The translations under genes were made by a program, and so were the position numbers. This document shows positions 22,262-47,138 of a stretch of 64,000 bases of DNA, piece after piece; positions within the stretch are counted from its first letter, which is position 1; every line of letters starts with the position of its first letter. The DNA is from Oleiharenicola sp. (GTDB lineage: Bacteria > Verrucomicrobiota > Verrucomicrobiia > Opitutales > Opitutaceae), in NCBI GenBank assembly GCA_025363455.1, contig JANYDW010000010.1:1-64000 (forward strand), in the 5' to 3' direction. The notes under the pieces are model-generated. The model worked only from the letters and a program-made list of their open reading frames with translations, was not told the DNA's origin and did no database searches.

Positions 22262-22341
22262 ACCACGGAAGACACGGAACACACGGAAGGGTACATTGAT
22301 GGCAGGTTGCCTTCTTCCGTGGTTTCCGTGTATTTCGTGGT
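22262..22341. repeat. Inverted pair of 9-bp degenerate word arrays (ACCACGGAA type)
   Basis: The left arm has three nonamers, ACCACGGAA, GACACGGAA and CACACGGAA (22262-22288). The right arm has TTCCGTGGT, TTCCGTGTA and TTTCGTGGT (22315-22341). It lies in the guaB-menC divergent gap, ending 7 bp before the menC start codon. Confidence 0.75.
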
Positions 22342-22348
22342 TTCATTC

Positions 22349-23398
22349 ATGGAATACGGTTTTTCCCTTCGATCCTACCGTCTGCCCCTGCGCACGCCGT
22401 TGCGGACGGCCCACGGGATGTGGACAGAACGCGAAGGACTGATCATCCGGCTGGAGGACGAGTCCGGCCGGGCCGGTTACGGAGAAATCGCCCCCATTCC
22501 GGTATTTGGGACTGAAACTCTGGCCGAGGCTCGGGAAATTTGCGGAAAATTCGGCGACAAGGTTGACGATGAGGTGTTTGACGCGGTCGCGGAACGGTTC
22601 GGGTGCATGCGGTTCGCCCTGGCCGCGGCCCGGGCCACTGTAGCGCGGGATCGCCTGATCCTGCCGGATGGTGCACGAGGCGGGATCAGCGATCCCGCCC
22701 TACAGTCTGCCGCAAGCGTCCCGCTCACAGCCCTTTTACCGGCGGGCAAGGCGGCGCTTGAAACCTTGCCGAGCCGGCTCGAGTCCGGGTGGCTGAGCTT
22801 CAAGTGGAAGGTGGGCGTCGGCGACCTCGATGCTGAACTTGGATTGCTTGACGAGGTGTCGGCGTTGCTGCCGACCTATGCGAAGCTGAGGCTTGACGCC
22901 AACGGGGCGTGGACCCGGCGGCAGGCGGAGAAATGGCTCGCGCGCTGTGGTGAACGGCCGGTGGAGTTCGTCGAGCAACCGGTCGGGCCCGACGACGTGG
23001 ACAGCCTGATGGGCCTCGCGCAGGATTATCCCGTGAAGCTGGCCTTGGATGAATCGGTCGTGCGGCTCGCGGAGGCGAGAGAATGGCAGGCGCGGGGTTG
23101 GCCGGGCGTCCTCGTGCTCAAGCCCGCGCTGGCCGGGCCGTTGGACGAGATTGCGACGTGGGCCGCAAAGACCGGGGCCGATGTCGTGCTCTCCAGCGCG
23201 ATCGAAACCGCGCTGGGGCGTGCGGCCATTTTGCAATTTGCCCTGGCGCACTCCGCGCTCGTCCGACGGTCACCCGGCTTCGGCGTGGGCGAGGTCTTCG
23301 GTGACCGCCGCTGGGACGGACCGATCATGGGGCCGGTGCTGGACGAAGGTTGGGTCGCAGCCATCAACCCGGAGGAATTATGGAACGCGCTGGCCTAG
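22349..23398 (+). CDS. menC: o-Succinylbenzoate synthase
   Basis: MenC dehydrates SHCHC to o-succinylbenzoate in menaquinone synthesis (enolase superfamily). The 349-aa product has the KxK motif in SFKWKVG (about 151), LDANGAW (about 180), VEQPVG (about 210) and ALDESVV (about 234), the Mg-binding and base residues. Residues about 97-119 (RDRLILPDGARGGISDPALQ) are encoded by a complete REPIN at 22638-22705, a segment the family does not need. The start at 22349 is chosen because the upstream in-frame codons are repeat. Its end overlaps menE by 19 bp. Confidence 0.88.
   Translation: MEYGFSLRSYRLPLRTPLRTAHGMWTEREGLIIRLEDESGRAGYGEIAPIPVFGTETLAEAREICGKFGDKVDDEVFDAVAERFGCMRFALAAARATVARDRLILPDGARGGISDPALQSAASVPLTALLPAGKAALETLPSRLESGWLSFKWKVGVGDLDAELGLLDEVSALLPTYAKLRLDANGAWTRRQAEKWLARCGERPVEFVEQPVGPDDVDSLMGLAQDYPVKLALDESVVRLAEAREWQARGWPGVLVLKPALAGPLDEIATWAAKTGADVVLSSAIETALGRAAILQFALAHSALVRRSPGFGVGEVFGDRRWDGPIMGPVLDEGWVAAINPEELWNALA
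22638..22705. repeat. REPIN inside menC, GTAGNG-GGGATCGC family
   Basis: The left arm is CTGTAGCGCGGGATCGCC and continues TGATCCTGCC. The right arm, read in reverse, is CTGTAGGGCGGGATCGCT then GATCCCGCC. Both begin CTGTAG and share the hairpin plan. It lies in frame within the coding region of menC. Confidence 0.75.
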
Positions 23399-24618
23399 CC
23401 CGGCTCCTCGGCGGCGCCATGGCCCAAGGTACGCCACGGATCCAGGTGGCCGAATCCGATCCGCGGAAATTCATGGCGGCCTTTGCCCGCGCCGTGGCCG
23501 GCCGATCCGAGGTGTTCCTGAGCGATCCCGGGTGGGGGGCGTACGAGCGCAAACAGGTTGACGCCTTGCTGGCGGCACCGGCCTTTGCTGCCGAGGCTGA
23601 GCAGGGCTGGCTGATGATTCCCACCGGCGGCACCGGCGGCCAGGTGCGCTTTGCCCGCCATGATGCCGCCACGATCACCTCGGCTGTGCGCGGCTTCACG
23701 CGGCATTTCGAGCTGCCGCAGGTTAACGCGGTGGGGGTTTTGCCCCTGCATCATGTCAGCGGGTTGATGGCTTGGATGCGATGCGTGTTGACCGGCGGCG
23801 AATACCTCCCGCTCGACTGGAAGTCAGTCGAAGGCGGGGCCTGGCCCGAGCTGCCGGCCAAGGCTCACGGCTGGACCCTCTCGCTCGTGCCCACCCAGTT
23901 GGAGCGCCTGCTGCGGCAGGAGCGCGCCGTGGCCTGGCTGGGGAAATTTCGGATCATCTTCCTCGGCGGCGCGCCGGCCTGGCCTGCGTTGCTGGACCGG
24001 GCCGCGGCCCTGGGCCTGCTGCTTTCGCCCGGTTACGGCCTGACTGAGACCGCCGCGATGGTGACGGCGTTGCGGCCGGAGGAATTTCTCGCCGGGGCCC
24101 GCAGCTGCGGGACGGTGCTGCCGCATGTGCGGGTCAGCATTGACGACGAGGGATCGATCCTGGTCGCGAGCGACTCCTGCTTCCGGGGCTACTACCCGGC
24201 ATGGCGGGAGTCCGGGACCTTCGCCACGCAGGACGGCGGCTGGCTCGACCCCCGCGGGCACCTGCATGTGACCGGGCGGCGCGATGCCGTCATTATCACT
24301 GGCGGGGAGAAGGTGAGTCCGGCTGAGGTCGAGGCGGTGTTACGCGGCACGGGCGAGCTGTCCGACGTGGTGGTGCTGGGCCTGCCCGATACGGAGTGGG
24401 GCGAGAGCGTGGTGGCGGCCTATCCCGCCGAACCGCCCCCCAATCTCGTTCTCGTGGAATCGGCGCTGGCCCGTCTGCTCTCGCCTGCGAAGCGGCCGAA
24501 GCAATTGGTCGCGCTGGCCGCGTGGCCGGTCAATGCCCAGGGCAAGGTGAACCGGGCGGAGGTGGCCAGACTGGTCCGCGAGAAAATCGCTGAGAACACA
24601 AAGCAGCAAAGCAGCTAA
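23380..24618 (+). CDS. menE: o-Succinylbenzoate-CoA ligase-like AMP-binding enzyme
   Basis: MenE activates o-succinylbenzoate with ATP and CoA, two steps after SHCHC. The 412-aa product has the ANL-superfamily motifs: PTGGTGGQVRF (about 80, the Ser/Thr/Gly loop), GYGLTETAAM (about 213-222) and the C-terminal GRRDAVIITGGEKVSP (about 297-312) and GKVNR with the catalytic Lys (about 388). The N-terminal domain is shorter than usual. ATG 23380 is preceded by GGAGG (23371-23375). Gene order menC-menE with overlap supports the call. The last residues ENTKQQSS lie in a repeat arm. Confidence 0.85.
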   Translation: MERAGLARLLGGAMAQGTPRIQVAESDPRKFMAAFARAVAGRSEVFLSDPGWGAYERKQVDALLAAPAFAAEAEQGWLMIPTGGTGGQVRFARHDAATITSAVRGFTRHFELPQVNAVGVLPLHHVSGLMAWMRCVLTGGEYLPLDWKSVEGGAWPELPAKAHGWTLSLVPTQLERLLRQERAVAWLGKFRIIFLGGAPAWPALLDRAAALGLLLSPGYGLTETAAMVTALRPEEFLAGARSCGTVLPHVRVSIDDEGSILVASDSCFRGYYPAWRESGTFATQDGGWLDPRGHLHVTGRRDAVIITGGEKVSPAEVEAVLRGTGELSDVVVLGLPDTEWGESVVAAYPAEPPPNLVLVESALARLLSPAKRPKQLVALAAWPVNAQGKVNRAEVARLVREKIAENTKQQSS

Positions 24619-45991: not shown

Positions 45992-46002
45992 TAAGATCGT
46001 AG

Positions 46003-47028
46003 TCATTTCCATGCCGTTACGGTCTCCACCAGTGCCTCCATGCACTCGATCTTCGCCTCAGGCATGATGCCGTGCCCGAGGTTGAAAATATGGCCGCGCG
46101 TCTCGCGCATGGTTTCGAGCAGGCGGGTAACCTCACGGCGCACGATTTCCGGGGTCGTGTTCATCAGGACCGGGTCGAGGTTGCCCTGGAGCGCAATGTT
46201 CGCGGGCACGAGCTTGCGCACGACACCCAGGTCGACGGTCCAGTCGACGCCCAGCACCTTCGCGCCGCTGAAGGCCATGTCGGTGAGCTGGGAGGAGGCA
46301 CCCTTGGCGTAGAGGATAACGGGAAAATCCCGCGGCAATGCGGCGATGATATCGCGCATCCAGCGCAACGAGGCGGCCTCGTAATCCTGTCCGGCGATGA
46401 TCCCGCCCCATGAGTCGAAGAGCTGGATGGCATCGGCACCGGCATTGATCTGCATCTGGAAATAGTCGATGAGGGCGGCGGTAAGTTTTTCCATCAACGC
46501 ATTGAAGAAGGATCGGTCGGTGTAGAAGAGCTGCTTGATGCGGCTGAAATCCTCCGAGCTGCCTCCCTCGACCATGTAGGTGGCGAGGGTCCAAGGGGCC
46601 CCGCCGAAGCCGAGCAGGGCCTTCTCGCCTTTCAGTTCGGCCTTCACCCGGGTCAGGGCCTGCGCAACGTAGTTGAGACGGGTCGTCAGGCCGGCAGGGT
46701 CGAGTTGGTCGAGTTGGGCGCGGTTCTCCAGCCGGAAATCCATGGCGATGCCGCCCTCGTCGCGGAACTTGTAGCCCTGGCCCAGGGCTTCGGGGATGAC
46801 GAGGATGTCCGAAAAGATGATGGCCGCATCGAGGGCGAAGCGACGCAGCGGCTGCAGGGTGACCTCGGCGGCGAGCTCGGGGGTCTTGACCATCTCGAGG
46901 AAAGACGACTTCGCCTTGAGGGCACGGTATTCCGGCAAATAGCGGCCGGCCTGGCGCATGACCCAGACGGGCGGTCGGTCGAGCGGCGCGCAGGCGCAGG
47001 CGGAGAGGAAGCGGGAGCGGGAATTCAA
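46003..47028 (-). CDS. hemE: Uroporphyrinogen decarboxylase
   Basis: HemE removes four carboxyl groups from uroporphyrinogen III. The 341-aa product has PVWVMRQAGRYLPEYR (20-35), FSDILVIPEALGQ (about 71-83), FGGAPWTLATYMVEGG (about 136-151) and QLFDSWGG (about 202-209), all family signatures. The length is standard. It is followed on the minus strand by hemG and preceded by hemF, with word-array and REPIN repeats in both gaps. Confidence 0.96.
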   Translation of the reverse strand: MNSRSRFLSACACAPLDRPPVWVMRQAGRYLPEYRALKAKSSFLEMVKTPELAAEVTLQPLRRFALDAAIIFSDILVIPEALGQGYKFRDEGGIAMDFRLENRAQLDQLDPAGLTTRLNYVAQALTRVKAELKGEKALLGFGGAPWTLATYMVEGGSSEDFSRIKQLFYTDRSFFNALMEKLTAALIDYFQMQINAGADAIQLFDSWGGIIAGQDYEAASLRWMRDIIAALPRDFPVILYAKGASSQLTDMAFSGAKVLGVDWTVDLGVVRKLVPANIALQGNLDPVLMNTTPEIVRREVTRLLETMRETRGHIFNLGHGIMPEAKIECMEALVETVTAWK

Positions 47029-47029
47029 G

Positions 47030-47138
47030 GAAGTAAGAATTAAGAAGTAGGAATTAAAAAGCTAGACTTAGGAAAGGGCAGGCAAGTGGTGTGGAGGGTG
47101 AAAACTTCATCATTCATCCTTCTTAGTTCATACTTCAC
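47030..47138. repeat. Inverted pair of 7-bp degenerate word arrays (GAAGTAN type)
   Basis: The left arm has units GAAGTAA, GAATTAA, GAAGTAG, GAATTAA, AAAGCTA, GACTTAG (47030-47071). The right arm has ACTTCAT, CATTCAT, CCTTCTT, AGTTCAT, ACTTCAC (47104-47138). It lies between hemF and hemE; the hemF stop (47128) is in the right arm. Confidence 0.7.

Follow-up and report, generated by a model that had tools for sequence, protein, structure and literature searches.

The first 64,000 bases of contig 78 of an Oleiharenicola sp. genome (4.23 Mb in 83 contigs), here called the window, raise a simple question: what are the pairs of opposed arrays, each built of a few copies of a short, imperfectly repeated word, that stand between its protein genes or at their ends? 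Probably, we suggest, they are the gene-less forms, comparable to miniature inverted-repeat transposable elements (MITEs), of a class of small, apparently mobile elements; the reading that best accommodates our data is that this class resembles the intervening sequences (IVSs) of rRNA genes and is defined by the period and number of its words rather than by their sequence.

A purpose-written detector, combining inverted local alignment with a period test (6–12) within the arms, picks out eight periodic pairs of inverted arms in the window. Seven are those of a preliminary description of this DNA, with measured periods of 9 (at 22261), 9 (31792), 8 (35898), 9 (38749), 7 (39790), 7 (40347) and 7 (47030), and the eighth lies at 10273–10389. 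Forty dinucleotide shuffles of the window give a mean of 0.225 pairs and a maximum of two; at a stricter score, the window retains four pairs and every shuffle has none. The opposed, imperfect arrays are thus present at all seven places, and the further contention that their architecture is conserved and their sequence is not also stands, in that word length, opposed arms and mirrored unit order are kept while the word varies. The proposed search of the genome for arms of period 7–9 was made in a sample of 400 kb and gives 17 further pairs, 15 of them in that range (period 7 in seven, 8 in six, 9 in two and 10 in two, with none at 6, 11 or 12); 300 kb from 18 genomes of the same genus, comprising homologues of the window region rather than a random sample, give 29, three of which have period 6 (pair spans were limited to 400 bp in both samples). 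All seven arrays also fold as RNA hairpins, another of the checks that had been suggested, with z from −2.8 to −8.5: among 200 shuffles each, none is as good for five arrays, one for 39780–39868 and four for 47025–47140.

Gene-bearing elements with word-array arms

The same genome carries four matches to PF05635, a family of four-helix-bundle proteins, three of them above the curated cut-off, and eight PF13366 (GxxExxY) genes; the flanks of both mostly show inverted word arrays in the style of the window. Across a wider collection, periodic inverted arrays surround the PF05635 gene at 123 of 148 loci, with period 7 or 8 at 121, against 3 of 274 gene-sized segments displaced by 800 bp and none of 148 loci with shuffled flanks. 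These 148 are the best-scoring loci (the best 80 of 590 from genome contigs, and the best 30 of a longer list from the window's own phylum), and contain some near-identical viral contigs; by set, arrays flank the gene at three of four loci in the own genome, 28 of 30 in the phylum, 66 of 80 in genome contigs and 26 of 34 in viral contigs. At least 590 loci with a four-helix relative were found in one scan, and the hosts named in the records include Clostridia, Flavobacterium, Planctomycetota, Acidobacteria, Chloroflexi, groups of the candidate phyla radiation, Rhizobium and a Methanophagales archaeon. Additionally, the four-helix genes of cyanobacterial plasmids have inverted heptamer arms in all six cases examined (of 34 matching records). 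Two of these elements, L267 and L272 on Anabaena and Pseudanabaena plasmids, occupy the same cas6–cas4 gap of clustered regularly interspaced short palindromic repeat (CRISPR) loci with different words.

The PF05635 elements have a median length of 475 bp. Within the arms of 105 period-7 elements, five units are commonest (43 left arms and 45 right), followed by four (28 and 28). The solved four-helix relatives 2gsc (XCC0516 from X. campestris) and 2rld were each deposited with five chains, and the Xanthomonas protein is described as a homopentamer (PMC4990558). One PF05635 protein, L076, matches the model of Avd, the accessory protein of diversity-generating retroelements, at an E-value of 1.9e-9, a match that falls short of the model cut-off; homology of this kind is discussed in PMC10053308. 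The 13 array-element proteins checked fall within TIGR02436, TIGR04258 or TIGR04256, and no transposase was found among them between the inverted ends. Models of defence systems give no match for one protein of each of the two families, and an Rfam scan of 20 loci (of 114 from genome contigs and viral contigs) matched no family, rRNA included. Two own-genome loci depart from the common form: in L004, the fourth PF05635 gene, the arms lie at 1421–1439 and 1818–1836, the second of them inside the gene's own reading frame, and L001 has a strong pair of period 6, a class also seen gene-less in G012.

One four-helix gene, flanked by GGGAATC arms, lies inside a type IIG restriction-modification gene (L103, 1–3318). 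Against one PADLOC model, the left piece of this host gene matches positions 221–512 and the right piece 557–1010, which leaves 44 model positions between them unmatched; the L103 protein has no match in phage records.

The PF13366 genes are flanked in a related, albeit looser, manner. Inverted arms reach, at 30 of 34 loci, a score attained by 4 of 1000 random segments (34 of the 37 loci were counted; L132, L133 and L150 were omitted). Each arm has about three words, judged by eye, of a form like CRCNRAK, spaced most often by 9 and 10 and next by 8 bp; as the spacing varies, only 18 of the 37 loci pass the strict-period test. An AlphaFold2 model of L006 (predicted local distance difference test score 94.7) has a PD-(D/E)XK nuclease fold, and its best Foldseek match is SSO0001 (4ic1; E 3.6e-5), which we take to be a Cas4-type protein, followed by lambda-type exonucleases. 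One GxxExxY protein compared by sequence with solved structures gave no match. In an alignment of 34 GxxExxY sequences, D72 and K84 are invariant; the modelled protein thus presents the D...(D/E)xK signature of this nuclease fold, in agreement with the Pfam name, and nuclease activity is predicted. Directly after one GxxExxY element, downstream of position 1869 of L012, there is a second, gene-less array pair.

Words, concerted change and turnover

Sixteen gene-less arrays from the window and the sample, compared with the arms of ten own gene-bearing elements (L001 and L004 omitted), score 24.6, whereas 500 random sets of arms from other genomes score 17.5 (sd 1.0) and never reach that value; the closest pairs are 35898 with L003, 40347 with L002, 22261 with L010 and 10273 with L012. 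When 25 gene-less arrays are counted more loosely, an own element matches 14 of them in the same polarity and one, 38749, in the opposite polarity, and 10 have no match at the cut. Two long-range pairs, with spans of 1157 and 1047, are regarded as chance. The preliminary view that the word differs at each locus therefore needs qualification: the architecture is kept and the word is not, but words recur in the genome and resemble those of its gene-bearing arms, and the notion of an unrelated word at every locus was rejected on this ground.

The words themselves follow rules. In the strand that is read inwards from the left arm, AG occurs in 100 and CT in 27 of the 123 words with period 7 or 8, so the word has a preferred polarity. 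The words of gene-bearing elements track the protein clade, and word similarity grows with protein identity (rho 0.26 for 116 dereplicated elements; the highest permutation value is 0.15, and none of 1000 is as high). Moreover, the order of units is mirrored between arms: arm identity exceeds that of unit-permuted arms in 73 of 81 cases, equals it in five and is lower in three; the aligner's choice of register favours this result, and re-aligned permuted arms still score lower in 86 of 104. Where related elements have a flank in common, one letter of the word can be exchanged throughout both arms, in every unit or almost every one. Thus L090 and L092, which have 1.4 kb of left flank in common, differ by one word letter, C throughout the counted units of the one and A throughout those of the other; between L093 and L096, with 1.3 kb of right flank in common, a letter goes from G to A, at 100% and 90%, respectively; and L203 differs from L208 or L230 more loosely. 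A mechanism that maintains the arrays, as had been supposed for the window, is supported in part, namely by these concerted changes in both arms and by the mirrored order.

Comparison of the same gaps in relatives, which the preliminary description had also called for, reveals other words, a gene-bearing element or nothing in congeners. In the hemF–hemE gap (16 rows), four congeners have 8 bp and no array, five have arrays of five different words, one genome of another genus has yet another word and the window has its own, the remaining rows being short or unclear sequence. The STAS–SpoIIE gap (14 rows) is 9 to 12 bp long and free of arrays in four congeners, and has AAGTAAC-type arrays in five rows and other contents in the rest. 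In the PALP–yicC gap (21 rows), there is a four-helix gene or its remains in nine rows (by tblastn, and by Pfam on seven); elsewhere there is no gap (four rows), no array (three), a lone arm with a repetitive extragenic palindromic (REP) sequence (one) or a gene-less array (four, including the window). Between lsp and dksA, arrays are absent in three congeners (L116, L117 and L120); in most other relatives the arms, with differing words, bracket the lsp start and leader, and in two they are lost or without a clear arm. Presence and absence at the same site in relatives, as expected of a mobile element, is thus observed; movement itself we infer.

The nine PALP–yicC copies form two protein groups, with about 50–60% mutual identity and two words: CCAAAG-type in L107, L108, L111, L112, L119 and L122, and AAGTAAC-type in L104, L106 and L115. 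A profile derived from A1 finds only four of the nine, and weakly, whereas the Pfam model finds the seven tested above its cut-off. In L104 the four-helix match covers only about 85 residues, and L106 has, by eye, an in-frame stop. Among five intact frames, the ratio of nonsynonymous to synonymous divergence (dN/dS) is 0.04–0.11 in seven of ten pairs and not computable in three, with dS high throughout (0.85–2.5); one copy, L122, is in another genus. In the same gap of a congener (L105 in G009), a CACTAAT pair is nested inside a CACGGAT pair.

Proposed mechanism, rival explanations and known systems

A full element is about 0.4–0.6 kb long: two copies of an arm, each with a few repeats of the word and inverted relative to the other, enclose one small gene. 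That gene is of either of two kinds: one encoding an Avd/S23-kind four-helix-bundle protein, with arms mostly of five 7-bp, sometimes 8-bp, words; or one encoding a GxxExxY PD-(D/E)XK nuclease, with arms of about three words at 9–11-bp steps. Such elements would enter short intergenic gaps and could lose the gene, leaving a hairpin. Presumably, the element's own protein recognizes the word repeated along the arm, and the four-helix protein would plausibly engage one word with each subunit of a five-fold ring, as DNA or RNA; recognition of this sort would allow copies that lack the gene to spread, or to persist, alongside those that carry it, while slippage within arms and hairpin templating between them would homogenize the word. 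A pentamer meeting five words would be the simplest reason for a fixed count and period with a drifting word. Quasipalindrome correction and ring-binding models form the background to this proposal, and the short tandemly repeated repetitive (STRR) sequences of cyanobacteria are heptamers. In a bolder form of the proposal, which we hold to be possible though doubtful, each arm would serve as an address that can vary. The four-helix protein, as a five-fold ring, would read a five-word arm of single-stranded DNA or RNA with one subunit to each word, word and protein would coevolve, and the ring geometry would set period and count while the word drifts. If that were true, a recognition code could be read from the many natural elements, and this type of end would have been invented a second time, independently, in the GxxExxY nuclease elements.

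Several observations weigh against regarding the arrays as gene-less copies of mobile elements with word-reading proteins. The covariation of word and protein may stem from joint descent alone. Direct repeats of at least 4 bp at the ends, as a target-site duplication would leave, are not above chance, occurring in 5 of 29 cases with 2.5 expected and in 7 of 124 with 5.75 expected from permuted pairs, and no known transposase is among the proteins checked; on these two grounds a DDE-type insertion sequence, or the MITE of a DDE transposase, was rejected. Three of the seven window arrays (47030, 39790 and 31792) match own gene-bearing arms weakly. The PALP–yicC element is old and under purifying selection, and may therefore be domesticated, and the lsp–dksA arms enclose host sequence, so that insertion of a unit is no explanation there. 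Nor does the gene alone yield gene-less copies, as these are rare with or without PF05635: outside the genus, nine genomes with a PF05635 match have one gene-less pair of period 7 or 8 in 360 kb (three of any period), and seven genomes without a match have two in 400 kb (four of any period), both counts excluding G003, which has two 7-bp pairs in 40 kb; G024, a family member without a PF05635 match, has two clear arrays. A high number of gene-less copies is thus a trait of this genus. Rarity, or a lack of enrichment over shuffled sequence, was the outcome that the preliminary description had named as contrary to its view: it is not what the own genome presents, but gene-less arrays are indeed rare in the phylum's other genomes.

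The lsp arms, the mirrored unit order and the concerted word changes would all be expected if the arrays were self-made microsatellites, in which slippage multiplies a 7–9-bp unit and template switching at a hairpin (quasipalindrome correction) copies one arm onto the other, with neither protein nor mobility involved and the gene families incidental. We consider this unlikely as the whole explanation, as it accounts neither for the gene between the arms at 123 of 148 PF05635 and 30 of 34 PF13366 loci, nor for the presence of arrays where congeners have an 8-bp gap; slippage and hairpin correction may well be the homogenizing part of the explanation that we prefer. Host-kept regulatory hairpins of RNA or DNA (attenuators, processing sites or translation control), with the small genes as their regulators, would fit arrays that fold well and stand, in short gaps, close up to the stop and start codons, and also the one gene copy under purifying selection. 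Because the same gap in congeners holds different words or nothing, there is no conserved regulatory site, and one element interrupts a type IIG gene; a regulatory origin is, therefore, decidedly unlikely. Least probable of all, and very unlikely in our estimation, is that an unrelated host transposase such as RAYT moves the arrays as ordinary insertion sequences or REPINs, with the small genes as passengers: RAYT-type genes accompanied by REP-like palindromes do occur in the genome, and REPINs, which are inverted pairs, have a known link to RAYTs (PMC3116915), but the repeats of the RAYT-type genes here are other, palindromic ones, and the array elements carry two unrelated gene families with no transposase among the proteins checked.

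Among the closest known systems is the IVS of Coxiella 23S rRNA, described as a selfish element of 428 nt with an S23p/PF05635 gene and terminal inverted repeats that form a 28-bp stem (PMC4990558). The protein family, the gene between inverted repeats with a long stem and the size are alike, and an inverted-repeat stem around a PF05635 gene is found in the gene-bearing four-helix elements; the difference is that the IVS lies inside 23S rRNA, whereas the 20 element loci tested match no Rfam family. The nearest analogue in logic is the REPIN/RAYT system, which likewise combines gene loci with many gene-less inverted hairpin pairs between genes. However, REPs are palindromes associated with RAYT transposases (PMC3116915; PMC3733652), whereas the arms described here consist of tandemly repeated words and go with PF05635 or PF13366 genes. 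The preliminary description had separated the arrays from both CRISPR and REP sequences, and rightly so: units abut without spacers and the arms are opposed, for which reasons a CRISPR array was rejected, and REP-like palindromes of the own genome instead flank several of its 11 RAYT-type genes. A REP/REPIN identity was also rejected, as only one of these 11 matches passes the period test, against 23 of 1000 random segments.

Xanthomonas has GGGAATC heptamer repeats, and Nostoc has similar ones; they are described as mostly intergenic, with four units commonest; opposed pairs number 70 in X. campestris and 75 in X. axonopodis, and the prominent repeats differ between species (PMC4692102). They were studied as quadruplex-forming repeats, with no general association with mobile elements reported, and the term "four helix" is absent from the text of that paper (PMC4692102). 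They resemble our elements as heptamer arrays in opposed pairs, and L103 is a four-helix element with that very word. The cyanobacterial STRRs (PMC2670836; PMC2408588) and the TAACTGA repeats of Beggiatoaceae (PMC4679880) are likewise short intergenic words, some of them hairpin-forming, and the six cyanobacterial four-helix genes examined here have inverted heptamer arms. The TAACTGA sets are almost all direct and of a single word (PMC4679880). Unlike our elements, both are described, in the parts available, without a flanking gene family (PMC2670836; PMC2408588; PMC4679880); they may be relatives of the arrays.

For every known kind tested, at least one defining feature is missing here, and on that ground the class is set apart as new; a more cautious placing would be that it may be a variant of IVS-like elements. 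No type of transposon known to us has ends that are set by the period and number of copies of a word while the word itself changes freely, and such ends make recognition between protein and word directly testable. In the open-licence literature, preprints not covered, no report linking word arrays to PF05635 or PF13366 genes was found. Within the window's phylum, 100 of the 145 genomes sampled have a PF05635 match; a set of 14 well-known controls has none, and this may explain why the class was overlooked. The proposal could unite subjects that are separate in the literature: the unexplained heptamer arrays of Xanthomonas and cyanobacteria, the S23p genes of IVSs, and the families annotated as four helix bundle protein and GxxExxY protein, to which no role is assigned.

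The individual arrays of the window

The neighbours of the arrays are household genes: those for IMP dehydrogenase (IMPDH), a MenC-like enzyme, tyrosyl-tRNA synthetase, redoxin, STAS and SpoIIE-like proteins, a pyridoxal phosphate enzyme, YicC, signal peptidase II and a DksA/TraR-type protein, and hemE and hemF. Two of them are of GxxExxY type. The array at 22261–22342, between the divergent IMPDH and MenC-like genes, has three CACGGAA words per arm at 9-bp steps (arms 22261–22289 and 22314–22342), is placed in this type by its word, has its nearest own gene-bearing arms in L010 and folds with an RNA z of −7.9. The additional pair at 10273–10389 (arms 10273–10295 and 10367–10389) has CACAAAAAG-type words of period 10 and L012 as its closest own element; it comes after a HemN-like gene and falls at the 5' portion of an M23 peptidase frame or within it.

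The array at 31792–31829 requires a correction: described as a 7-bp array, it has a 7-letter core, TAGGWCC, that recurs at 9-bp steps, and its arms (31792–31810 and 31811–31829) touch to form one palindrome. It adjoins the start of the tyrosyl-tRNA synthetase gene, and its word is like that of the four-helix-suffix element L004; it has no match at the cut in the own-element test, from which L004 was omitted. Between the STAS and SpoIIE-like genes, the array at 35898–35991 has four 8-bp RCTGAARR words per arm (35898–35933 and 35956–35991), a word identical to that of the own four-helix element L003.

Three arrays follow in close succession around yicC and lsp. In the PALP–yicC gap, where 9 of 20 relatives have a four-helix-bundle gene or its remains, the array at 38749–38835 has the three words CCTTGGCGG, ACTTGGCGC and CCTTTGCGC (arms 38749–38778 and 38806–38835), and its word polarity is the reverse of that in the 14 others for which an own element could be matched. 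The yicC–lsp gap holds 7-bp AAGTATC words at 39790–39859 (arms 39790–39813 and 39836–39859), a word also found in four-helix elements of congeners. At 40347–40491, 7-bp ATTTACG words form arms at 40347–40375, in the lsp reading frame, and 40463–40491, upstream of the probable lsp start, so that the loop is the lsp start and leader. In the window (40347–40464) and most congeners read, the array arm encodes part of the Lsp N-terminus. The last array, at 47030–47136 in the hemF–hemE gap, has 7-bp GAAGTAA/GAATTAA words (arms 47030–47054 and 47112–47136).

A weak pair below the cut (log p 2.6, and hence not counted) lies at 24595–24647, at the junction of AMP-binding and polymerase-X-like genes, with 8-bp GCAAAGCA-like words in arms 24595–24619 and 24623–24647. 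A direct array of 7-bp AGCTGAG words at 14057–14094 has no inverted partner in the next 120 bp. Finally, REP-like palindrome pairs with GTAGG-type tags are located at 10414–10469, 11475–11551, 22637–22706, 45926–45991 and 49592–49670, and are of the kind that flanks some of the RAYT-type genes of the same genome.

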